A program made the translations under genes and the position numbers. From positions 1-34,012 of the forward strand of contig JABAAY010000005.1 of the NCBI GenBank assembly GCA_014238525.1: a stretch of 34,012 nt of DNA, read 5' to 3'. A model generated the notes under the pieces. The model had not been told where the DNA came from. It did not search any database and was given only the letters and a program-made list of their open reading frames with translations. Below are positions 818-34,012 of this stretch, piece by piece. Origin of the DNA: Mycoplasmatales bacterium. GTDB lineage: Bacteria > Bacillota_I > Bacilli_A > Mycoplasmatales > JABAAY01. Position 1 is the stretch's first letter; every line of letters begins with the position of its first letter.

Positions 818-2437
818 ATGAAAAAACAAACGGCAATAACAAAAATTCGTGAACTATCTCAAAATACTTTTAATAATGACCAAAAACAAATTGCTATAAA
901 CATAGTAGAATCTGCCAAAAATGAAAATCAAGTTGCTGAATTTTACAGTTTAGTTGTTCAAAAAGTAAAAGTTGGACTAACATTTGATGAATCTGTAAAC
1001 ATTCCAACCGGAGAAATTGCAGTTGTAAGTTTTTCGCCTAAGCAAAGTTTGATTACAGAAAATGGTGTTGATAATTCTTTCATAATTGGAGAAAACTTAG
1101 ATGCTTTAAAAAATTTACGTGTTTTGTATAAAGAAAAAATTGACATTATTTACATTGATCCCCCTTACAATACTGAATCTGCTGAAAATGGCGGTAACCA
1201 ACTTTCAGATTCCGAACAAGAAAAGATACAGAAAAAGCAAAACGAGGGAAAGGGGACGTTTAAATATACTGATAAATTTTCGAGAACTGGATGATTGAAT
1301 ATGATTAAAGCTAGATTGTTAATTGCCAAAGAATTATTAAAAGAAAACGGCATTATATTTGTTTCTATCGATGATAATGAACAAGCATATTTAAAAGTAA
1401 TTATGGATGAAATTTTTGGAGAAGATAAGTTTTTAGGCATGATTACAAGAAAAACTAGTGCAGGTGCCAAAAACAAGGCCGGGGAACTTGCGAAAAATGC
1501 TGATTATATATTGGTGTACAAAAGACAAGACAAGATCTCATTAACAAAAAAAGAAAAAGATGCAGAGGCAAAGAAGTATTCACATTATGATTCTTCTTCT
1601 AAAAGATATTTCAGGAAAAGAACCCTTCAAATGCAGGGAGCGGGACAAGATTTACTAAAATATAGAAAAGATATGGGGTATAGCATTTATTTTAATTCTG
1701 ACAACAACAAAATTAAAATTTTGTATGATTATTCTAAGGAGACACTTATTTACGAAAAACCAAATGAAAAACTCCTTAAAGAAAATTATAAGTGCTATAG
1801 ACCATCTACAGTAGGAAAAGAACCCGGAAGATGAAGATGGTCAAATTTTGAGAAAAATTTTGATAACAATCTTCTTTTTGAAATTGGAAAAGTTTATCAA
1901 AAGGAATGAAAGAAAGCAAAAATTATCAAACCTTTCGATACATTTTGAGCAGGTTTTTTAAATTCTCAAGGTACGAAAGATTTAAAAGCAATTTTAGGGT
2001 ATAAAGCCTTTGATTTTCCTAAACCGGTAAGTTTAATTAAAGAACTTATTTCTATATATGACAACAAAAACGCCATTATTTTAGATTTTTACGCTGGTTC
2101 AGGAACAACAGGGGAGGCAGTTATGGCCCTTAACAAGGACGATAAGGGAACCAGACGTTATATCCTTGCTTCCAACGATGAAAACAAAATAGCTACTGAG
2201 GTAGCTATTCCTCGCTTAAAAAAGATTATTAAAGAAGTTGTTGGATGCAGCAATAATTCCTTGAAGGTGTTTAATTTAGAAAATCATTCAGTGGAATTAA
2301 CAAGCACTATAGACAACCTTGCAGATGACACCAGGGAGAATTTTAAACTGTTGAACAATCAATTTGTACCTACTAGTGAAAAAATTTATTATTCTCTTGC
2401 TTCTTTAAGAAAAGAAAAACATAATGAACACAACTAA
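818..2437 (+). CDS. mod: Type III restriction-modification system, DNA methyltransferase subunit (Mod)
   Basis: N6-adenine DNA methyltransferase that both modifies DNA and supplies target recognition for a type III R-M complex. The protein is 539 aa with UGA read as Trp (1292-1294, 1832-1834 and others). The catalytic DPPY motif is at residues 114-117 (IDPPYNT). The AdoMet-binding motif FYAGSGTTG is at about 424-432, preceded by FDFPKP. Motif IV therefore comes before motif I, the beta-class order typical of type III Mod. The segment between them (about 150-400) should carry the target-recognition domain. The ATG at 818 has no Shine-Dalgarno; an AT-rich -10-like sequence lies upstream. The 3' end overlaps res by 14 nt, as expected for a coupled pair. 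I see no simple repeat tract of the kind that makes some mod genes phase-variable. All key motifs are intact, so it is probably active. The recognition sequence cannot be read from the gene. Confidence 0.93.
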
Positions 2438-4622
2438 CGTTCAAAATAGAGCTATTGACGAACTATTAAGCGCTTATTCTAATAATTATTCGAGTGTTCT
2501 ACTTAATGCGCCTACAGGCTCTGGGAAAACATTTATGCTTTCATCGTTTATTTCACGGCTTATAGAATCCAATTCTAATGAAAAATTAATTTTTGTTATT
2601 GTTACTTTATCATCATCAGAACTTCCAAAACAATTGACAAAAAAATTTCGCGAGTATAATGATTTTTTGAATACACCACTAAACATTGAACATAAAGAAC
2701 CGCCTTCAAAAATGGTTTCGTATGTAAAGGATTATGAATCTGTAATTTTAGCAGAGAAAAACAAAGTTTTTATTTTGGGAAAATCTTCTTTTACTAAAAA
2801 GACAATCTTTTATGAAAGGGGAGTAATAAAAGGTTTTTTAGAACAAATACGTAATGAGAACTACAAATTAATTTATATTAGGGACGAGGCTCATTATGGA
2901 AACACAAGAGAATCTTGAGACTCCGAAGACAAAAAAGCGGAAACTCAAATGCAAGATTCTGCGTCTTTTATATTGGAAATGACTGCCACTCCCAAGTACA
3001 CTCCCGGACGTCAAGTTATTATCAGAAACAGCGAACTTATCGATAACGGGGAAAGATTGATCAAACAAACCGAATTAAAAAACACAGGAATAAAAGAATT
3101 GCAATTGGAAAATATTTCTGATCTTGATTTGCTCCAATCTGCTATAAATCAATTTAAGATTCTGAAAGAGGAGTATATTGATTATTCTATTCAAAATGAA
3201 CAAGAAATAAATCCTGCCATGTTAATACAAGTTGATTCAAAAACTCAAAAAACATCAAAGCAATTTATAGAAACTTTGGCATCAATAAAAAAGAAGTTAA
3301 ACAAAAATAATTTATCCTGATTGCAATATTTTGGTGATGAGAAAATTTCTAGTACCAAAGAAACATATTCACTTCAAGACATTTCTTTGGGCAACAGTTC
3401 TGTAGACGTTATTATTTTTAAAATAGGCCCTGCAATAGGATGAGACATACCAAGAGCAGCAATGTTGGTACAAATGAGAAAAGTGAATTCTTTAGCATTA
3501 AATATACAAACCTTAGGAAGAATTAGACGAAACCCTTCCAAACGTCTTGAGTATAATTCGATTATTGACAAATATTATCTGTATTCCAATTATCAAAAAC
3601 CTACTAGAAATCAAGAAACTTATCTTCTTAAATCTGTATATGAAAAATTAAATTTTAAATGTGGAAAAATAGATAGGAAAAAAATTACAAAAAATAACTT
3701 TGATTATGACTCTTTTGGAGAATGATTTAGTGAAAATTTCGAAAGCGAGGAGAAACTGAATTGATTTAAAAAGTCATATGAAAACGATTTTAAAAACAAT
3801 GAGCCAGTTTTATTAATATTGAATGATGTTGTTGAGGACAGATTTAGTTTCGGTTATTATAAAGAAAAAATCATTGACTTAATAGATCTTAAGTTATATA
3901 ATTTGAATTTTGAAAAAAAACATAAAGACTACTTTATTATTGTAAAACCAATTTTACTTCAATTTATAGAAAAACAAGGATATGAAAACGATAAAGGTTT
4001 ATACATTTTTAATAGATATTTTTTTCAGGAATTATTTGGAAAATATAGAAATGTTAAAGAAAAAATGGAATTTTCTAATTATCATAGTATTGTTTCGAAA
4101 ATGCCAGAATACTATATTATTTGAGATGATCAAAAAAAAGAAAAAGTTAATTTCCACTCTATTAACGAAATATATGGGTTTAATAATGCAAACAATGATG
4201 ACAAATATGTTCAAACAATGGATTCGATTCCAGAAATCATTGTTATGAAAGATATAATAAAATCTGTAAAAAAATATTCGGAAGTTACTTTTTTTGCCAA
4301 AAATCCTGTTTTTTTTGGAGTATATTTTGAATATATTAATGATAACGACTTAATTTCTAAATCTTTTTTGGATTTTGTTGTTAAATTCAGAAACGTGGAT
4401 ATTATAATTGAGGTCAAGGGCTACGGGCAAAGAGACATTGATCTTGAAAAAACCGCATTGCTTGAAAAAGCCTATAGAAAATACTCCAAAACAGAAAAAA
4501 ACTTAATTCTTTGCATAGCTAAAGTAAATGATTCTAATTTTATAGATTATAATTTTCTTTCGAACGAAACATCTGTGAATGATCTTAAAACTGTAGATGC
4601 TTTGTTTAATGTTTTGCTGTAA
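2424..4622 (+). CDS. res: Type III restriction-modification system, restriction/helicase subunit (Res)
   Basis: ATP-dependent SF2 translocase-endonuclease partner of Mod. It is 732 aa with several UGA Trp codons and no frameshift. Helicase motifs run in order: Walker A APTGSGKT (K35), DEAH box at 154-157, motif III MTATP near 190, a GWD motif near 340 and motif VI QTLGRIRRNP near 360. The C-terminal PD-(D/E)XK nuclease motif is present: FLDFVV with D650, then IIEVKG with E663 and K665. The protein is shorter than classical Res proteins such as EcoP1I (about 970 aa), but no catalytic motif is missing. The ATG lies inside the end of mod (14 nt overlap), implying translational coupling. Downstream it meets the IS transposase tail to tail, only 38 nt away. 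Confidence 0.92.
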
Positions 4623-4642: not shown

Positions 4643-4665
4643 TTTAAAAAGACTTGTTTTTTAAA
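4643..4665. terminator. AT-only hairpin between convergent res and transposase ends
   Basis: TTTAAAAA and TTTTTAAA form an 8-bp inverted repeat around a 7-nt loop. It lies just after the res stop and over the transposase stop. It might act as a weak bidirectional terminator, but the stem has no G-C pairs, so this is tentative. It also overlaps the likely left end of the IS. Confidence 0.2.
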
Positions 4666-6073
4666 TTTCTATCGGAATTATTTTTCGTCCACTGAATTTT
4701 TGTGGAGATGTTGACAAGGAACTGTGATATCTTTGATTATTGTATATATCTATTCAGTTTCTGGCATTGCGTTTAATTTCTCAATTTTCCATTTTTTCAA
4801 AATATCTATTTTCTACTTTCATAGTTCTGTAAAATCTTTCCATAAAAGCATTATCCGTGGGAGTATAAGGCCTGCTAAGACTCTGGCGTACATTGTTTTT
4901 TAGAAATAATTCTTTCATGTAAGTGTTATAAAATTCTGGCCCTCTATCAGAATGAAAAATTTTTGGAATCGTTATTGTAGTAAAAATTTTTTTTAGCAGT
5001 TCTATCATTTTTTCTCCTCCAAGATTTTTTTCTCAAAAGAAATAACCAACAATGTATCTATCGTAAACATCCATTATGGTAAATATTTTTAATTTTTTGG
5101 TTTTTTGAAAACCGGGTTTTCTTAAAAAAGATGCATCGCTTACCCATAGTTCATTAATTTTTTTAGGATAAAATCTTTCCTTTGTTTCAACATTTAAAAG
5201 AAGATTCTCACATTTGTACGTCGCATTTTTCATTCCCCGATAAACCGCAGGCCTATAATAAGTTTCTGTTTCTAAATTCAATGCTTTTAAATGCCTATTA
5301 ATTTTTTTAATGCCATATACAATTTGATGATTGTTTTGAATTTCTATTTTTAATCTACGTATTCCAAGATAATTTTTGCCTTGGCTCCGTATTTCTCTGA
5401 TAAAACCTGATAATTGTTCATCCAATTTTGGGCCTGAAGGCATTTTGTTTTGTACCCATCGATAATATCCGGATTCTGATACTAAATAATTTTTACAAAG
5501 AGTGGAAACAGAAAAAACGGAATTTCTTGTGCTATGAATGATTCTATATCTCGATATTGTGGTTAGTTTTTTTATTTGATTGAACACATAATCTATTTCT
5601 ATTTTATTGAGTTCGGAAATAATTCCTTTTCGATTTAATCTCAATATAGAATTATATCCTGGCGCTTGCAAAATGCTTTCAATTGGGCCATGAGTTTTCT
5701 TTGATAATTTTCCTTCTCTTTCAAGACCTACTCATCTTCTTAAAGTTGTTTCCGGGAGATTATATTTTTTTAGCGTTGCATTAATTCCTTGTTGTCAATA
5801 ATAATTTACGGCATTTCTTTTCAATCCATAACTATATTTAGTATTGTTTTTCTTGATGCAACGGGTATTTAAATGAGATTTTTTATATTTTTGGTTTTTA
5901 GGAAATAATATACCCAATTTATCTCTTGTTATTCAAGTTCGCAATGTTGTTGATGCAATGTTGTGTTTTCTACAAACAGCCGATATACTATCATTTTCAT
6001 TTATTGTTTTTAAAATTTTTTTAATATAATCTTTTGAATAAGGTTTGGCATTACGTTTTATGTTTTCCACCAT
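4661..6073 (-). CDS. IS3-family transposase with N-terminal HTH modules and DDE integrase core
   Basis: Catalyses cut-and-join transposition of the surrounding element. From the ATG at 6073 the frame encodes 470 aa, with UGA for Trp at conserved places such as LRRW. Two helix-turn-helix-like modules come first: NDSISAVCRKHNIASTTLRTW (about 20-40) and NATLKKYNLPETTLRRW followed by SKKTHGP. Both are orfA-type modules here fused to the catalytic part. The rve core follows: first Asp in WVSDASF, second Asp in FHSDRGPEF, and Glu in DNAFMERFYRTMK. Exactly 35 residues separate the second Asp from the Glu, the DD(35)E hallmark of IS3. The C-terminus (NNQRYHSSL then P) also fits the family. All catalytic residues are present and the frame is intact, so the element may still be mobile. 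Confidence 0.9.
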
Positions 6074-6338
6074 TTAGTTCTTTCAGAATTTGTCTTTTAT
6101 TTATATGAAAATCATGTAGTATTTTTCCAAGCTCAAAATCAGAAAACTCATCTCACTGTTTGTTTAAAATGAATTCTTGATTAATTCTTCCTAATTTAAT
6201 TTTCGAATATTTTAATTCTTTTCTTCATCGAAAAATGGAAACCGACCCAATCTTAAATTTTTTTTGAGTTTCTTTTGTTGTGTGATTTTCGAAATATTCT
6301 AAAACAGCAGTCTTCTTTTTAAGGGATGGCATATCCAT
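6051..6338 (-). CDS. IS3-type OrfA-like small HTH protein
   Basis: A 95-aa frame upstream of the transposase, starting MDMPSLKKK. It has a helix-turn-helix-like stretch (TTKETQKKFKIGSVSIFRWRK) with UGA-coded Trp. In IS3 elements OrfA binds the terminal repeats and is often joined to OrfB by a -1 frameshift. Here it overlaps the transposase frame by 23 nt, but the downstream frame is offset +1 rather than -1, and the transposase has its own ATG. Coupled re-initiation therefore seems more likely than the classical frameshift. The alternative is that this is a broken first module of a once longer protein. The ATG at 6332 is also possible. Confidence 0.6.
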
Positions 6339-6372
6339 ATACTATCATCTTTTATCTATTATATGGCGACAC

Positions 6373-6954
6373 AATAAAAAACCACCCTTCGTAATTTTTT
6401 ACCATGGGGATATATCTTTACTCAATAATAATAATCTTGTTTCTGCAATTGGAACAAGGAACAATACCAAATATGGAGAGATATGTTCTTATAAACTTAT
6501 AACCGAGTTGGCAAAAAATTATGTAACTGTTAGTGGAATGGCAAAAGGGATAGACACACTTGTACACAAATATACTATAAATAATGGAGGCAAGACAATT
6601 GCAGTTTTGGGATCAGGAATTAACTACATCTATCCGATAAATAACACTGTTATTTATAAAGAAATCAAGGAAAAAGGATTAATAATAAGTGAATATCCGA
6701 ACGTTACTGTGCCAGAACAAAAAAACTTCAAAGAAAGAAATAGACTGATTGCATCTCTTGGGAAAGGACTTTTGGTTGTTGAAGCGGCTTTGAAGTCAGG
6801 TACAATGAATACAGTCTCACATGCCTTAAATTACGGTAAAGATATTTGATGTGTTCCCCACACAATGGATAAAAAAAGCGGCTGTAATTTTTTAATAAAA
6901 CAAGGGGCAAAACTAGTTGATAGCGTTTCCGACATAATTGAAGATTTAAATTAA
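6373..6954 (+). CDS. dprA: DNA-processing protein DprA/Smf, 5' end lost at the IS (possible pseudogene)
   Basis: DprA loads RecA onto single-stranded DNA during transformation. The visible frame begins with the family's PPFVIFYHGD entry to the Rossmann fold. It continues with AIGTRNNTKYG, VSGMAKGIDTLVH, GSGINYIYP, SEYP, KERNRLIASLG and SGTMNT and ends at 6954, so the core domain is complete. What is missing is a normal N-terminus: DprA-like sequence starts only 35-45 nt from the IS orfA start, with no ATG, GTG or RBS there. In-frame starts are an ATG at 6235 inside the IS (antisense to orfA), which would give a hybrid of about 239 aa, or a TTG at 6508 that drops the GTR motif. It sits directly upstream of topA, as smf does in Bacillus. 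Identification is firm. Whether a working protein is made is doubtful. Confidence 0.8.
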
Positions 6955-14349: not shown

Positions 14350-15486
14350 ATGAAGAAAATAACTATTCTAGGTTCAACTGGTTCCATAGGAACACAAACA
14401 TTAGAAATAGTGAGAAAGCACAATAAAGAGATAAAAGTTATTGGATTGGCATGTGGCAAGCAACTAAGCAAATTAATTGAACAAATTAACGAATTTTCAC
14501 CTACAAAAGTGTTCATCCAAGATGAAGAATCATTTACGAAATTGCGCAGTTTGTTTCCGAAAATAAAAATTTTTACAGGAGAAAATGGTATTTCCGAAAT
14601 GATCAGAGAAGCAAATGTTGATTTAATAATCAATGCATTAGTTGGATTTGCTGGAGTTGTTCCCACCTTAACTGCAATCGAACAAAAAATCAATATCGCC
14701 TTGGCAAACAAAGAGAGCCTTGTATCGTGTGGTCATATAATAATGAAAAAAGCCGAAGACAATAATGTGAAAATATTTCCTATTGATAGCGAACACAATG
14801 CAATGTGACAATGTTTACACAGTGGCAAAAAAAGCGAACTTAAAAAAATTCTTATAACGTGCAGCGGCGGTCCTTTTTCTAATTTGACACTTGAGGAAAC
14901 AAAAAAAGTTACCAAGAAAGAAGCCCTAAAACATCCAAATTGAACAATGGGGAACAAGGTGACAATAGATAGCGCCACCGTAACAAATAAAGCATTGGAA
15001 ATTATCGAAGCTAAATGACTATTTAATATTAGCAAAGATCAAATAGTACCCATTTTACACAAAGAGTCAATAATTCACTCGATGATTGAATTTCAGGATA
15101 ACAGTATAATCGCCCAAATGTCAAACCCAAACATGTCTCTTCCCATATCCTATGCCTTGATGGAAGGAAATAGATTTGTCAACGAAACGCCTCCCATTAA
15201 TTTTAATGATGTCTCGCAGTTAAATTTTCAATACATGGATAACAAAAGATGATTACCACTTAAAATTATTTTTGATATTTTTGACAATCCTTCCTTGTGT
15301 GCAGTGTTTAATTCTGCAAACGAGGCAAATGTTAGACTTTTTTTAAATGATAAAATATCGTTTTACGACATTACAGAAAGAAATAAAAGAGCTGTTGAAA
15401 GGCACCAAGACATTCCAAAACAATTGGAAATTAATGAAATTATTCGCTTACACAATTCTGTTATACAGCAAGAGGAATCCATATAA
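14350..15486 (+). CDS. dxr: 1-deoxy-D-xylulose 5-phosphate reductoisomerase
   Basis: NADPH-dependent enzyme making MEP from DXP, the committed step of the non-mevalonate isoprenoid pathway. It is 378 aa, the normal length. The nucleotide-binding GSTGSIGTQTLEIV is at residues 8-21. The metal and substrate residues are in ANKESLV, PIDSEHNA, CSGGPF, HPNWTMGNKVTIDSATVTNK (UGA Trp), LEIIEAKWLF and HKESIIHSM. All catalytic motifs are intact. The ATG starts right at the conserved N-terminus without a Shine-Dalgarno. The stop overlaps rseP (TAATG). Its presence beside uppS implies that isoprenoids are made de novo. The other MEP genes are not in this window. Confidence 0.96.
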
Positions 15487-26234: not shown

Positions 26235-28298
26235 ATGAAAAATTACACTTTTCAATTAGATAAAAAAGTATTAACAATTAATACAGAAAAATACGCAAGG
26301 TTAGCAAATGCTAGTGTGTTTTTGGAATTTGAAGGAACCACAATGATTACAACAGTGGTATCGAGTAAAAAACCATCGACATTAGGGTATTTTCCCTTAC
26401 AAGTTGTGTTCCAAGAAAGATTATATGCAGCTGGTAAAATCCCAGGAGGATTTTTAAAAAGAGAGGGAAGGCCATCAGATCACGAAATTTTAACTGGACG
26501 TATAATTGATCGTTCTTTAAGACCACTATTCCCCAAAGACTACAACAATGAAGTTCAAATCGTCGTTACTGTGCTTGCTTACGATGACAAAACAGATTTA
26601 AGAACGCTTGGATTATTTTCCGCTAGTTTGGCTACATTAATTTCAAATATACCTTTTAATGGTCCTGTTTCAGGGTGCAGTGTTAATGGTAAAAAAGATA
26701 AATTATCATATTTTGTTTCTGAAGATATAGAAGAAGTGAATGATTTGAATATGTTTGTTGCTGGTACTGAACAAAAAATCAATATGCTTGAAGCCGATTG
26801 TAAACAAAGCAATGAAAAGTTCATCATTAAAGGTATTTCTGGAGCTCATAAGCAAATAAAATCTCTTAATAAGTTCCAAAAGAGTATTCAAAAAGAAATT
26901 GGAAAAACCAAAATTAAATTTAATTCTCCTGATACCAAAAATATGTACAAAACCATTTCTTCAAAATATAATGATGAATTTGACAAAATTGTAAATGCTG
27001 CCATATCAAGCAACAGAAGTCTTGAGATAGAATTGTTAATAAATGAAATAATGTCTAACAAGGATTTAGATTTCAGCCCTAACAATTCTCTTATTTCCGG
27101 CGTTGTCAATGAAATTTACGTACAGAAAATGAGGGACAACATTCTTTATGAAAAAAAGAGACCAGACGGAAGAAATGAAAATGAACTTCGTAATCTTCAC
27201 TCTGAAATTGACATATTAGGCATGGTGCATGGTAGTGGGTTATTCGAAAGAGGAGAGACACAAGTATTGTCGATTTTAACATTAGGTTCCTTAAAAGAAG
27301 GAAAAATGATGGATAGTATTCAAACTAGCGAAGATAAAACGTTTATGCATCACTATAACTTTCCACCATTTTCAGTTGGAGAACCTGGTAGAATCGGGTT
27401 TACTTCCAGAAGAGAAGTAGGTCACGGAGCGTTAGGTGAGAAAGCATTAAAACAAATATTACCAAGTACAGAAAAATTTCCCTACACAATAAGATTGGTT
27501 GCCGAAGTTTTAACAAGCAACGGAAGTACTTCACAGGCAGCTATTTGCGCAGGTACTTTAGCATTAATGAGCGGTGGAGTTCCTATTAAAACACCGATTG
27601 CAGGTGTTGCCATGGGTTTAGTTAAAGAAAATAAAAAACAAGTTTTATTAACAGATATAAGCGGATTAGAAGATCACATCGGAGACATGGATTTTAAAGT
27701 CTCAGGCTCTCGCTCAGGAATATGTTCTATTCAATTGGACATTTGTATAGATGGGTTGGACATTAAAACAATTACGGAGGCACTTGATAAGGCGAAAGAG
27801 GCGAGAATAAAAATGTTAGACGTAATGGAAAAAACAATTAATAAACCGAGGGAAGAACTATCTAAAACCGCCCCTAAATTTATTAATTTTAAAATTAAAA
27901 AAGACAAGATTAGAGTTGTTGTAGGCCAAGGCGGGAAAACCATTAATGAAATTATCGATAATTGTGGAGATGTAAAAATAGACATAAACGATAATGGATT
28001 AGTAAACATTTATCATAACGATAAAGAAATGATAAATAAAGCTTCGGAATGAATAAAATCTTTAATTTGAGAACCAAAAATGCACGAAGTATACGAAGCA
28101 AAGATTATGAGAATCGAAAAATATGGCGCATTTGCAAAAATTGGAAACACTAAATTTGAAGGTTTAATACATATTTCTAAAATTTCGAAAGAACGTGTTG
28201 AAAATGTTGAAAGTGTTTTGAAAATGGGACAAAAAGTAAAAGCAAAAGTTTCGCGAATTGATGAAAAAGGTAGAATACAACTATCAATGATTCTTTAA
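26235..28298 (+). CDS. pnp: Polyribonucleotide nucleotidyltransferase (PNPase)
   Basis: Phosphorolytic 3'-5' exoribonuclease and part of the RNA degradation machinery. It is 687 aa. First RNase PH domain: FLKREGRPSDHEILTGR and DRSLRPLFPK. Alpha-helical linker about 210-310. Second RNase PH domain: KRPDGRNENELR, HGSGLFERGETQ, LEDHIGDMDFKVSGS with the catalytic Asp residues. KH domain about 555-610 (VVVGQGGKTINEI) and a C-terminal S1 domain about 615-687 that ends without the usual extra tail. Two UGA Trp codons (SEWIKSLIWEP) join KH to S1. The strong AGGAGG 6 nt before the ATG suggests high translation. Confidence 0.97.
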
Positions 28299-28301
28299 AC
28301 A

Positions 28302-29951
28302 ATGAACGATAATATAAAAATAATCCATTTTGGTGGGCAAGATGAAGAGGGCAATTACATGACTGCCCTTGAAATTAAGAACAATATTTTTATATTTAAT
28401 TCTGGCTCCAAAACACCTAGAAAATACGAATTAGGTTTCGAAACCGTGATACCATCTTTTGAATATTTGAAGCAAAATGCTGGAAAAATCAGAGGATTAT
28501 TTATAACCCATGCCAAAAAAAATTGTTGAGGTTCGTTACTTTATTTAATTAAAGAAGTAAAATGTCCAGTTTTTTGTTCGCCGTTTACAGAATTTTTAAT
28601 TGAAGAAGAACTTGCTAAAATAGAGAACGTTAAAGGTAAGTTAAGAGTTGTTGAAAGAAACCACACATACTCAATAAACGACGTTAAATTTCATCTTTTT
28701 TCACTAACCTCTTCACAACCAGACGCTTTTGGTTGTGCAGTTGAAACCCATCAAGGTATGATTTACTATATGACTGACTTCATAATAGAAACCGATAGTA
28801 AAGAAGCATTTTCTATGAACCTTAGAATACTTTCTAAAATTAGTTCAAAAAAAACGCTTTTACTAATGATGTCGGCAACTAATTTCCACATCCCCTCTTT
28901 TACTGCGCCTTTTCACAAATTATCCAATTTTACAAAAAGACATTTAGTTGGTTCCAAGAAAAGAATAGTAGTTGCTAATTACGAACACAGAATTACTGAA
29001 TTAATTGAAATCATTTTAATGGCTTCTGAGGCTGGAAGAAAAATATTTTTTCATGGCGAGCATTTTATTAATCTTTTCACCCGTGTTTGCTTATTAAAGT
29101 ATATAGATACTCAAAAGATCCAAATTGCAACGGAAAAAGAATTAGAAAATGGCAAGGTTTTAATTGTAATTACTGGCGATAATCTTTCTCTTTTCCCTTC
29201 AATAGAAAAAATTGCAAATAATTTTACAAATAAAGGGTTAGCCTTTCGTGATAACGATACATTGTTGGTTGTTTGTAATCCTAAATCTGGTACTGAAATT
29301 GATGCTGCTAGATCGCTCGATGCAGTTGCTGCACATAATGTGGAAGTATTCACGGTTAACAAGAAAGACAAATACGACATGCATCCTTCTTTCGAAGACG
29401 CAAGACTAGTTGTTAACCTTATTAAACCTAAATTTTTTATGCCCATTAATGCTAGATACAACAGAATGATTGCTGCACAACACATTATTGAAAAAACCAA
29501 TATGGATAACGATAAGTTGTTAATGCTTGATAATGGTGATGTTGCCGAATTTAAGGACGAAAAACTAGTTTTTTCCAAAAGTTATAAAAGAGTTCCAGCT
29601 GGAAATATATATGTTTCGACAAATCAAATTAGAAACGTTAGCGACAAAAATACAGTGGAGAGAATGCGAATTGCAACAAACGGACTTATTTTAATTGGTC
29701 TTGGCGTAGATTTAGAAAAAAAATCAATAACATTTAAGCCATCTGTTGAAGCAACAGGATTTTCAAACAACAATATAAGGAATCTAAATTACGAACTATC
29801 ACAAATCATTTTTAAGCAATTATTGATGAAAATAAACACTTTCTCAAGCAAAAGCGAAGTCGAAGGGTTCGTTCACGATGTTGCCAAAGCTTATTTTCAT
29901 AATTATAATCAAGATAAAATCCACATCGTTACAGTTTGTAAAGCAACATAA
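28302..29951 (+). CDS. rnjB: RNase J-family protein, probably catalytically inactive (RnjB/J2-like)
   Basis: Metallo-beta-lactamase/beta-CASP family protein of 549 aa, full length for RNase J, with the whole fold recognisable: LGGxGExGxNM appears as FGGQDEEGNYM, then VIPSFEYLKQN, KIRGLFITH, CPVFCSP and, late, LIKPKFFMPINARY and KRVPAGNIYV. The metal site is eroded. The HxHxDH motif reads HAKKNC (70-75, UGA Trp next), DAG reads NSG, HSIPD reads SSQPD, DSTN reads SATN, SGHA reads HPSF and PVHGE reads PINAR; only isolated ligands such as H70 and D159 remain. Hydrolysis is therefore unlikely. It lies between pnp and ftsK, matching rnjB relative to spoIIIE in B. subtilis, so it may be a structural J2-type partner of an active RNase J encoded elsewhere. 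The orthology is inferred. Confidence 0.88.
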
Positions 29952-29989: not shown

Positions 29990-32599
29990 GTGAAAAATAA
30001 ACTTGAAAAAAATTCTTTTTCAACCAAAGTCTTAATTTTTTGAGCCGTCTTGGCAATTATTTTGTTCATTTCTTTTATTAGGGTTCCATATGTTGGAGAA
30101 TTTATAGACGATATCTTCTTTAAGTTTTTGTTTGGATATTCAAAGTTCTTTATTTATGCCATTCTTTTCTATTTTTGCATTACACAACTTTTTTTAATCA
30201 CTACATACGGATGGTTTAAAAAAACGTGACCAGGAATAATGGTAACAATACTTTCTACAAGTTTTATTATATCAGTTGCTGTTTTCTTTACATTATTCCC
30301 GGATGTAGACCGTCCTGCGAATATTCCAAACGATATAAATATTTTTAGCAATGAATGAATTGGTAATTCGGTATTTAGAAATCCCGCAGGAAGTTTTTTT
30401 AATTCTGACTGAATATTAAATCCTGCAGGAGGCTTCATAGGTGTTTTATATTCATCTATTTTTCAATACACTACTTTCGTTCCATCGATTATAATTGCTA
30501 TCCTGTTGTTTACATTTGGCATTAGTTGAATTATTACAGGAAGTTTTTTTGGAATTTATGTTATATTTGCAAAAAACATAAGTAGAAGAAGCAAAGTTGT
30601 AATAGAGACAATTACTAAAAATAAAAAAGTTACCGAGACCACTCCTACAAAAAACTATAATTCCAGAGTTCTTTTTTCACCAATAGCAACAAGCAAGGTT
30701 GTTGATAACGAAAAGACAGGAGTTTTTTATATGGAACATAATGATAATTTTGAATCAAAAGACTTTGCTGAGGAAAAAACGAGTAAAAAACAGAGCAATT
30801 GGAATAAATCAAAAGTCAATATTGTAAACACACAAGAACAAAAAGAAGGCCGAAAAGAAAATGAAGAGCAGAAACCTAAAACTAGTAAAAAAAACTTATT
30901 TCATCCTTTTTCTGAATTATTAAAAAGAAACAAATCGCGGAAAAAAATACAAACCAAACAACATGAAGAAGATAAACAAAAAACAGAATTAGAGATACTA
31001 ACAGGTAAAAAAAATGTCGAAGCATTTGGACAAGGGTATAGAAGCATCGTTAGCAGCACGAAACATAGTGAAGAAAACACTAGTTTTTTTGAGAAAGATA
31101 ATGAAGACACAGAACACGATGCTGTCAACAATATTGAAACAAAACAAGAAAAATCCCTAAATGAAACAAACTTTCTTGAAACTCAGGCGACTGAACAGAA
31201 TTTACAAAATAGAAATCACCGAAAGCAAGGTCATTCCAACATACATGTTCCTGATGCCGATACATCCTTTTTTGAAGAAAATTTAAAAAAGGCTAATACA
31301 CTTCATCCCGAAGAGAATACAATTACAAAATCGCAATTAGATGAAAACACCATTTCTGAAGAACAGGGAAAAGAAATAGAGCAAAAGCACGAAGGAATAG
31401 TTTTTAAGGGAAAACGCGTTCAGTATAATTTACCACATATAAACCTATTGCATGATACTTCAAAAAAAGTTGATAAGAAAAAAGTAGAGGAGTATGCAAA
31501 AGAAATTTCTTCTAAAATAAAACACGTTTTCAGTGTTTTTTCTATCAAGATACAAGTTAATAGTTATATCGTAGGTCCTAAAATTATTAAATACGAAATT
31601 CAGACACAACCAGGAGTAAGAATAAGTAAAGTAACTCAGTTGGAAAATGAAATTAAATTAGAGCTCGCAGTTACTGATTTAAGAATAGAGGCTCCAATCC
31701 CTGGAAAATCAGCAATCGGTATTGAGATACCTAACCCTCAACCAGAGTTAGTAACTTTTAAAGAAATGGTTGAACAAATACCTAAAAAATGCAAGGACAA
31801 TAATACATGCGTAGTAGTTGGGAAAAACATTTATGGAGAATCTATTTTTGCCTTTATTGATTCATTGCCACACTTACTAATTGCAGGAGCAACCGGAAGT
31901 GGCAAATCTGTTTGTATAAATAACTTCATCACCTTCTTAATTTTGAATTCTAAACCTAGTGACTTAAGACTATTATTAATTGATCCAAAACGTGTTGAAT
32001 TATCGTTTTTTAAAAAAGTCCCACATCTTCTTTCCGAAATAATTGTTGATTCGAAAAAAGCAATTTTTGCTCTTAAGAAAATAGAAGAAGAAATGGATAA
32101 CAGATATAAGTTATTACACGATTTAGGTTTTAGAAATGTTAAAGACTACAATAACCATCAGTCTAATTACGAAAAGCAATTACCCACCATTATTGTTTTT
32201 ATTGATGAACTTGCTGATTTAATGAAAATAGCTGGTAAGGAAGTAGAAGGAAGCATACAAAGAATCAGTCAACTTGCAAGAGCGGCAAGTATACATTTAA
32301 TAGTGGCCACGCAAAGACCCTCCGCAGACATATTAACTGGTATTATCAAAGCAAACATACCCGCAAGACTGTCTTTTAGATTGCCTTCTGCCATTGACTC
32401 AAGGACCATTTTAGATCAAAAAGGCGCAGAAAGTCTATTGGGAAGAGGGGACCTTTTATTTATAGACCCACTACAAAACTCTGTATTTCGTCTACAAAGC
32501 CCATTGATTAGTGACAGTGATCTTAGAAGATTAATAAATCACGTTTCTACAAAAACACAACAACGATTTGAAACTAAATTTACAGAATCCGACGTATAA
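29990..32599 (+). CDS. ftsK: DNA translocase FtsK/SpoIIIE family
   Basis: Membrane-anchored ATP-driven DNA pump clearing chromosome ends from the division site. It is 869 aa from a GTG at 29990, the first usual start after an in-frame stop at 29972. Four or five TM segments (about residues 10-185) include the FtsK_4TM-like NPAGGFIGVLY. A hydrophilic, Glu/Lys/Gln-rich linker follows (about 210-470). The alpha/beta motor comes next: Walker A GATGSGKS at 633-640 and Walker B FIDELADL with D739 and E740, then VATQRPSADILTG and DQKGAESLLGRGDLLF. The protein stops soon after (LRRLINHVSTKTQQ), so the C-terminal gamma winged-helix domain that reads KOPS/SRS sequences is missing. Oriented translocation would then need another means. 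Confidence 0.93.
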
Positions 32600-32610: not shown

Positions 32611-34012
32611 ATAGAGCAGTTAATTTCTAAAAAATTTATTCAAAATATACCTAGTAGTGCAGGATGCTACATGTTTCTTAATAAAGATGAAAAAATTTTA
32701 TACATTGGTAAATCAAAAAATTTACATAAAAGGGTAGCTAGTTATTTCTCAAGATCAAAAAGCTTAAAAATCACTAAACTTATTTCGGAAACAGAACGTA
32801 TAAAATTTATGATTACAAACTCTAACAAGGAATCGCTTTTGTTGGAGCAAAACTTAATTAATAAACACAAACCTAAATTCAATGTTTTGCTACAGGATGA
32901 CAAAAAATATCCTTACATACAAGTCACAAAAGGCGATAATCCCAAGCTAAACTATGTAAGATCTTCCGATAAAACCAAAGGAGAAAATTTTGGCCCTTTT
33001 CCTGATGGATTTTCAGCAAGAGAATTTTTAAAATTATTAAATAAAATATTTCCCTTTCGCAAATGCTACAAAATTCCTAAAAAAACCTGTATTTACTACG
33101 ATATTGGTCAATGTCTTGCACCATGTGTAAACAAAATTGACTCAATTGTTTATGAAAGAATGAAGCAGCAAATAAGAGATATTTTTAATGGTAATATTTC
33201 ACAAATAAAGGGAATTTTATTGAAGAAAATGTCTTTCTACAGTGAAAGAGAAGAATATGAGGCAGCCAATAAAATGAAAAACATTATTCTTAACTTGGAG
33301 GAATTTGTTAAAAAACAAAATGTCATACTGCCCGATTCTGACAACGTAGATGTTATTAGTGCATTTTCGAAGGAGAGTTTCGTTGTTCTCAACATTCTAA
33401 TAATTAGGTTTGGAAAATTAATTAATCAATTTCAATACTTTGACAAAATCAAACTAGATGAAAAAACGGATCTTAAACAAATAATAAATCAATACTATTC
33501 ATTCAATATGTATCCAAAAAAGATATTATCTTTGGAAGACTACGGGTTTTATGATGTCAAAAATTTTGGTGATTGCAAAGTTGTTGTGCCCATCAAGGGA
33601 GAGAAAAAAGAGCTGATTAATCTATCACTTACTAATGCAAGAAATTTTTATAATTTAGAAATTATAAAACACAACAATAAAAAGATAGAAGAAAAAGAAC
33701 TGAAAGAAACATTTGAACAATTAACAGGAATAAAGGGGGCATCGTATTTTGAAATGTTTGATAATTCACATCATTCTGGACAAAATATGGTTTCAGGCAA
33801 GATCGTAATGAAAAATTATAAACTAGAAAAAAATCTTTACCGCAAATATATTCTAAAACACTCATCACCCGGAAATGATGTAGAGGCCATGTACGAGGCG
33901 GTGTATAGAAGCACACTTAGACATTTAAATCAAAAAGAAAGCTTACCCGATATTATATTTGTAGACGGAGGAAAACCACAAGTTAATTCTGCACAACGAG
34001 CATTAATTGATT
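32611..34012 (+). CDS. uvrC: Excinuclease ABC subunit C (5' part, non-standard ATA start; runs off right edge)
   Basis: Makes both incisions around DNA damage in nucleotide excision repair. 467 codons are visible. N-terminal GIY-YIG nuclease: AGCYMFLN ... ILYIGKSKNLHKRVASYF (3' incision). Then LLLEQNLINKHKPKFNVLLQD, YPYIQVT, the Cys-rich CIYYDIGQCLAPC, a UVR motif (about 205-230, YSEREEYEAANKM) that binds UvrB, and the start of the RNase H-like nuclease (5' incision) with FEMFDNSHHSG and DIIFVDGGKPQVN, both Asp residues kept. The C-terminal HhH lies beyond the window. No ATG, GTG or TTG precedes the conserved region. ATA at 32611 (or a nearby ATT) behind a good AAGGAG is the likely start. Spacing from ftsK is 11 nt. 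Confidence 0.93.
   Translation, partial: MEQLISKKFIQNIPSSAGCYMFLNKDEKILYIGKSKNLHKRVASYFSRSKSLKITKLISETERIKFMITNSNKESLLLEQNLINKHKPKFNVLLQDDKKYPYIQVTKGDNPKLNYVRSSDKTKGENFGPFPDGFSAREFLKLLNKIFPFRKCYKIPKKTCIYYDIGQCLAPCVNKIDSIVYERMKQQIRDIFNGNISQIKGILLKKMSFYSEREEYEAANKMKNIILNLEEFVKKQNVILPDSDNVDVISAFSKESFVVLNILIIRFGKLINQFQYFDKIKLDEKTDLKQIINQYYSFNMYPKKILSLEDYGFYDVKNFGDCKVVVPIKGEKKELINLSLTNARNFYNLEIIKHNNKKIEEKELKETFEQLTGIKGASYFEMFDNSHHSGQNMVSGKIVMKNYKLEKNLYRKYILKHSSPGNDVEAMYEAVYRSTLRHLNQKESLPDIIFVDGGKPQVNSAQRALID

Follow-up and report, generated by a model that had tools for sequence, protein, structure and literature searches.

Gene content and frame of the rnjB locus

The analyzed stretch, hereafter called the window, comprises 34,012 nucleotides of a Mycoplasmatales genome (contig C83, JABAAY010000005.1) in which TGA encodes Trp. 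Read with genetic code 4, its right end carries truB, ribF, pnp, an RNase J gene, ftsK, and uvrC in this order; all coordinates given for this region refer to the plus strand. The RNase J gene (28302-29951) is of the rnjB type, encodes an RNase J2 ortholog of 549 amino acids, and has a full-length ortholog with 94% identity in the sister species G001 (Mycoplasmatales bacterium bin5p, contig JABABL010000007.1). Its frame is open only under code 4, with the single TGA codon of the gene at 28527-28529 encoding W76, whereas a table 11 reading stops at 28529. The stop codon of pnp, encoding PNPase (26235-28298; NF008805, 820 bits), lies 3 nt ahead of the rnjB start codon. Directly downstream of rnjB, we found a gene for an ftsK/spoIIIE-type translocase (29990-32599; frame and profile match), followed by uvrC (32671-34011), an open-ended frame that runs past the window end and was assigned by conserved gene order. 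The order pnp-rnjB-ftsK-uvrC bears out the rnjB position that had been assigned in an initial annotation of this DNA. An Rfam scan of the window found no RNA families.

The same annotation had described a protein with the length and fold markers of RNase J, and full-length profile and phmmer matches agree with this. The RNase J fold, consisting of the metallo-beta-lactamase (MBL), beta-CASP, and C-terminal domains, extends over about 550 amino acids, and phmmer matched the window protein to Staphylococcus epidermidis J2 (E 3e-51) and to Bacillus subtilis J1 (3zq4, E 4e-49). The beta-CASP domain spans residues 219-338 (28956-29315; Pfam PF22505, RNase_J beta-CASP, 38 bits). The C-terminal domain (residues 453-534; 29658-29903; Pfam PF17770) is weak in the window protein and was matched by all 27 aligned mollicute J2 proteins. 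The MBL half was recognized via full-length alignment, as the loss of the motifs leaves its own Pfam models with poor scores. The TIGR00649 match (279 bits) lies under the 400-bit curated cut-off of the model, which several other mollicute J2s also miss. A predicted structure of the window protein together with one ortholog had a pLDDT of 41, which is too low to read a dimer surface.

Elsewhere in the window, a complete dxr gene, encoding DXP reductoisomerase (14350-15486; 437 bits), is present, suggesting that the MEP isoprenoid pathway is at least partly retained in this lineage. At 818-4622, a DNA methyltransferase-like gene overlaps a helicase/restriction-like gene, forming a restriction-modification-like pair with weak matches. 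At 4661-6954, a minus-strand IS3-family transposase gene adjoins a dprA frame, with a slight overlap at the 5′ end of the latter; this frame does not cover the beginning of the DprA profile.

Active-site residues of the window protein and its relatives

B. subtilis RNase J1, with its seven metal ligands H74, H76, D78, H79, H142, D164, and H390, served as the reference. According to the alignment, the window protein has H70, K72, N74, C75, S137, D159, and N383 at these positions, so that the ligand set of a catalytic RNase J (HxHxDH, H142, D164, H390) is reduced to two of seven, H70 (H74 in J1) and D159 (D164 in J1; 28776-28778), the latter being the sole acidic ligand position kept. HxHxDH is represented by HAKKNC (residues 70-75; 28509-28526), in which H74, H76, D78, and H79 have become H, K, N, and C. 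DAG is replaced by NSG (residues 33-35; 28398-28406), HSIPD by SSQPD (residues 137-141; 28710-28724; ligand H142 to S137), DSTN by SATN (residues 191-194; 28872-28883), and PVHGE by PINAR (residues 381-385; 29442-29456; ligand H390 to N383). All five substitutions had been listed in the initial annotation and were recovered by the alignment, whereas its sixth, SGHA to HPSF, was misplaced: SGHA, on the substrate/5′-phosphate side, aligns with DMHP (residues 359-362; 29376-29387). Likewise, its statement that nearly every metal-binding motif is changed holds for the five lost ligands but passes over H70 and D159. By alignment, a check that it had proposed, the window protein was compared with 43 intact and 55 eroded sequences, and no metal ligands turned up at shifted positions. 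The 5′-phosphate pocket residues H364, S366, and H368 read K, D, and H in the window protein, with H361 as the formal counterpart of the substrate-side H368; the pocket as a whole is lost here and is not conserved across the 55 mollicute J2s. The altered motif residues show zero amino acid changes between the window protein and its 94% identical ortholog in G001, so that neither chance nor sequencing error is the source of the motif changes.

To place these changes in the order, we gathered RNase J copies from 58 relatives and aligned 98 distinct Mycoplasmatales sequences. Forty-three were intact, with seven of seven ligands, and 55 were eroded, keeping no ligand (14 sequences), one (30), two (10), or four (1). 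All 43 mollicute J1 proteins belong to the intact group, and genomes in which both copies were aligned always have one intact and one eroded copy. The initial annotation had regarded the window protein as a possible extreme case. As an isolated oddity this does not hold, because all 55 distinct mollicute J2s are eroded, 54 of them at at least five of the seven ligands. Active-site loss, as read from these alignments, is thus a property of the whole order and not of this species alone. The sole mollicute J2 with four ligands, L026 (G058, contig C112), has HGHTQQ and HSIPG; its intermediate active site is useful for ordering the ligand losses.

All 147 other Mycoplasmatales genomes of at least 95% completeness contained at least two RNase J matches. 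Four genomes with weak J2 scores (g74) were checked as exceptions, and all four have an eroded J2 with E332, the J2-specific Glu described below. Three of them have an intact J1. The fourth, G142, has a J1 of the intact type that is split into two frames, L213 and L214 (G142, contig C1, 473408-475074), which could stem from a sequencing error or from a genuine break. No full-length PNPase was found in the majority of the 59 relatives, where searches gave S1-domain matches alone or nothing. Families f1, f5, f7, and f9 alone have it at full length; f2 has a partial, diverged form, and the remaining families have either S1 matches only or no PNPase at all. In G009, the PNPase gene is split into two adjacent frames.

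Orthology, selection, and the probable J1 partner

In a tree built with the motif columns removed, the eroded copies were monophyletic (SH-aLRT 99) and lay outside the J1 clade, within which the mollicute J1s formed a single clade of their own. The branching order inside the mollicute J2 clade is unsure because some branches are long. A single mollicute-only RNase J clade was rejected by the AU test with motif columns excluded (delta lnL 181, p-AU 5e-49). A profile of the mollicute J2s had its best match in S. epidermidis J2 (E 7e-136), aligning over the entire length, C-terminal domain included. Bacilli J2s outside the Mycoplasmatales keep three to six of the seven ligands, forming a graded series.

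Three residues set the J2 group apart. E332 (29295-29297), corresponding to B. subtilis position 338, is a J2-specific Glu found in 55 of 55 mollicute J2s and in none of the 43 mollicute J1s; its equivalent is also present in 25 of 26 Bacilli J2s and in S. epidermidis J2. D14 of the GGxDE loop (28341-28343) is J2-enriched and occurs in 52 of the 55 mollicute J2s. D366 (29397-29399) is, in the alignment, invariant in mollicute J2 and mostly Glu in J1. Many Bacilli J2 genes adjoin ftsK, with pnp nearby in some, and the S. aureus genes pnp (SAR1250) and rnjB (SAR1251) directly follow one another (PMC4419217). With its separation from J1 in the tree, the J2-specific Glu, and the pnp and ftsK neighbors, the eroded mollicute copy is, on sequence and gene order, orthologous to RNase J2 (rnjB) of the Bacilli.

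The window gene is under strong purifying selection. Comparing it with its counterpart in G001 (Nei-Gojobori, code 4), we obtained a dN/dS of 0.052 (bootstrap 0.036-0.073) at an unsaturated dS of 0.62. This value is as low as those of infB (0.050) and uvrC (0.044), with nusA at 0.070 and the neighboring genes ranging from 0.036 to 0.091, showing that the gene is not decaying. Together with the intact frame, it upholds the view of the initial annotation that the gene is maintained.

Neither protein nor DNA searches found an intact J1 in the window's own assembly, which is fragmented and 77% complete and contains only the eroded copy. An intact RNase J elsewhere in the genome, for which the initial annotation had suggested to look, is thus absent from this assembly but present in the sister genome, where G001 has a fully intact RNase J1 (L035). 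Since the whole 16-kb stretch surrounding J1 in G001, which includes housekeeping-type genes, is absent from the window's assembly, the missing J1 most likely reflects an assembly gap.

Proposed role and known systems

Since nearly all metal ligands and the 5′-phosphate pocket are lost, mollicute J2 very probably cannot hydrolyze RNA. We consider it likely that the window gene represents an order-wide rnjB ortholog that has lost its active site and serves as the non-catalytic half of a J1/J2 heteromer. By analogy with the J2 proteins of Staphylococcus, Bacillus, and Enterococcus, it would form an RNase J1/J2 heterodimer or heterotetramer in which J1 provides the active site, while J2 would provide the dimer surface and shape or stabilize the grip of J1 on RNA. 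A J1 partner is favored over a one-off case because the same loss is seen in every Mycoplasmatales second copy examined. Of the two roles that the initial annotation had offered, a non-catalytic subunit and an RNA-binding scaffold, the former, as a partner of J1, is the best reading, and the scaffold is disfavored by the unconserved 5′-phosphate pocket. Studies of related systems provide the background for this proposal. In S. aureus, the main 5′ exonuclease in vivo is the J1+J2 complex, and a J2 active-site mutant grows like the wildtype whereas the deletion mutant is sick (PMC3937233). J2 has been proposed to stabilize or modulate J1, its role beside J1 being posed as an open question (PMC5289998). 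The inactive H69A and H71A variants of E. faecalis J2 still bind J1 with a Kd of about 80-90 nM; one E. faecalis phenotype requires J2 activity (PMC5383250), so J2 is not non-catalytic everywhere.

A non-catalytic J2 could instead act independently of J1, in RNA or ribosome binding or as a degradosome scaffold, via D14, E332, and D366. Such a role would fit the near-invariance of several residues in mollicute J2 that are less constant in J1, and also the family-specific states that some eroded positions have newly adopted, as in family f8, where identity at the former ligand positions is 72% compared to 50% overall. However, conservation at these positions falls below the average in family f11 (33% vs. 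42%), the 5′-phosphate pocket is unconserved, and J1 is also kept in the adequately complete genomes. Furthermore, E332 also occurs in Bacilli J2s, including known partners of J1, so that no new role is needed to explain this residue. We therefore regard a J1-independent role as unlikely, and slightly less likely still the broader proposal that mycoplasma J2, as a pseudo-nuclease retained universally, has acquired a conserved function of its own, beyond helping J1, built around the same three residues.

Weak or altered hydrolysis, with one metal only or with newly recruited ligands, would have a precedent in S. epidermidis J2, which works with one metal bound by H76, H78, H80, H144, and E166 (PMC7864078); in addition, the window protein retains H70 and D159, and L026 keeps four ligands. 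This appears improbable, given that only two of the S. epidermidis single-metal-site positions carry a His or an acidic residue in the window protein and that the 55 sequences share no alternative His at the site. The long branches and separate clade of the mollicute J2s might also be taken to indicate a diverged J1 duplicate specific to mollicutes. The AU test (p 5e-49, motif columns excluded), together with the E332 signature and pnp-ftsK location shared with Bacilli J2, makes this origin very improbable, and a mollicute-specific duplication is rejected by the tree and the AU test. Ligand loss on its own would be compatible with a decaying pseudogene, the least probable reading by far, which is ruled out by the dN/dS of 0.052, a frame intact in two species, and full-length copies across the order.

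A likely J1 partner without an active site bears on several published accounts. Although its active site is lost, J2 is retained by all adequately complete genomes that were checked in this order, in which genomes are reduced and many members have given up other RNases such as PNPase. The retention of J2 despite the lost active site provides natural evidence that selection preserves its non-catalytic role. The mollicute surveys that we found take both copies to be nucleases; one of them lists J1 and J2 in all Mollicutes and reasons as if both could be 5′-3′ exonucleases (PMC4014445), an assumption that the order-wide loss calls into question. Our results may also bear on why the minimal cell Syn3.0 unexpectedly keeps RnjB (MMSYN1_0257; PMC4993169). 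We found no papers on ligand loss in mollicute J2 in the open-licence literature, and it may be noted elsewhere.

An inactive metallo-beta-lactamase/beta-CASP paralog paired with an active one is familiar from CPSF100 (CPSF2) with CPSF73 and, in Integrator, from INTS9 with INTS11. CPSF100 and INTS9 differ from mollicute J2 in belonging to eukaryotic 3′-end processing and show weak, partial sequence matches to it, making them an analogy and not members of the same group. B. subtilis RNase J1 (RnjA, 3zq4) shares its fold and domain order with the window protein over almost the whole length but has all seven ligands, of which the window protein keeps two. Closest in kind are the J2 proteins of S. 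aureus and S. epidermidis, which, like the window protein, belong to the J2 group by E332 and gene position, have a damaged HxHxDH motif (HGHEHA in Staphylococcus), and have H390 replaced. Staphylococcal J2 still binds one Mn and is weakly active (PMC7864078), whereas the mollicute proteins are without nearly all ligands and without the pocket. In the best reading, mollicute J2 takes to its extreme a trend already seen in Staphylococcus and Bacillus.
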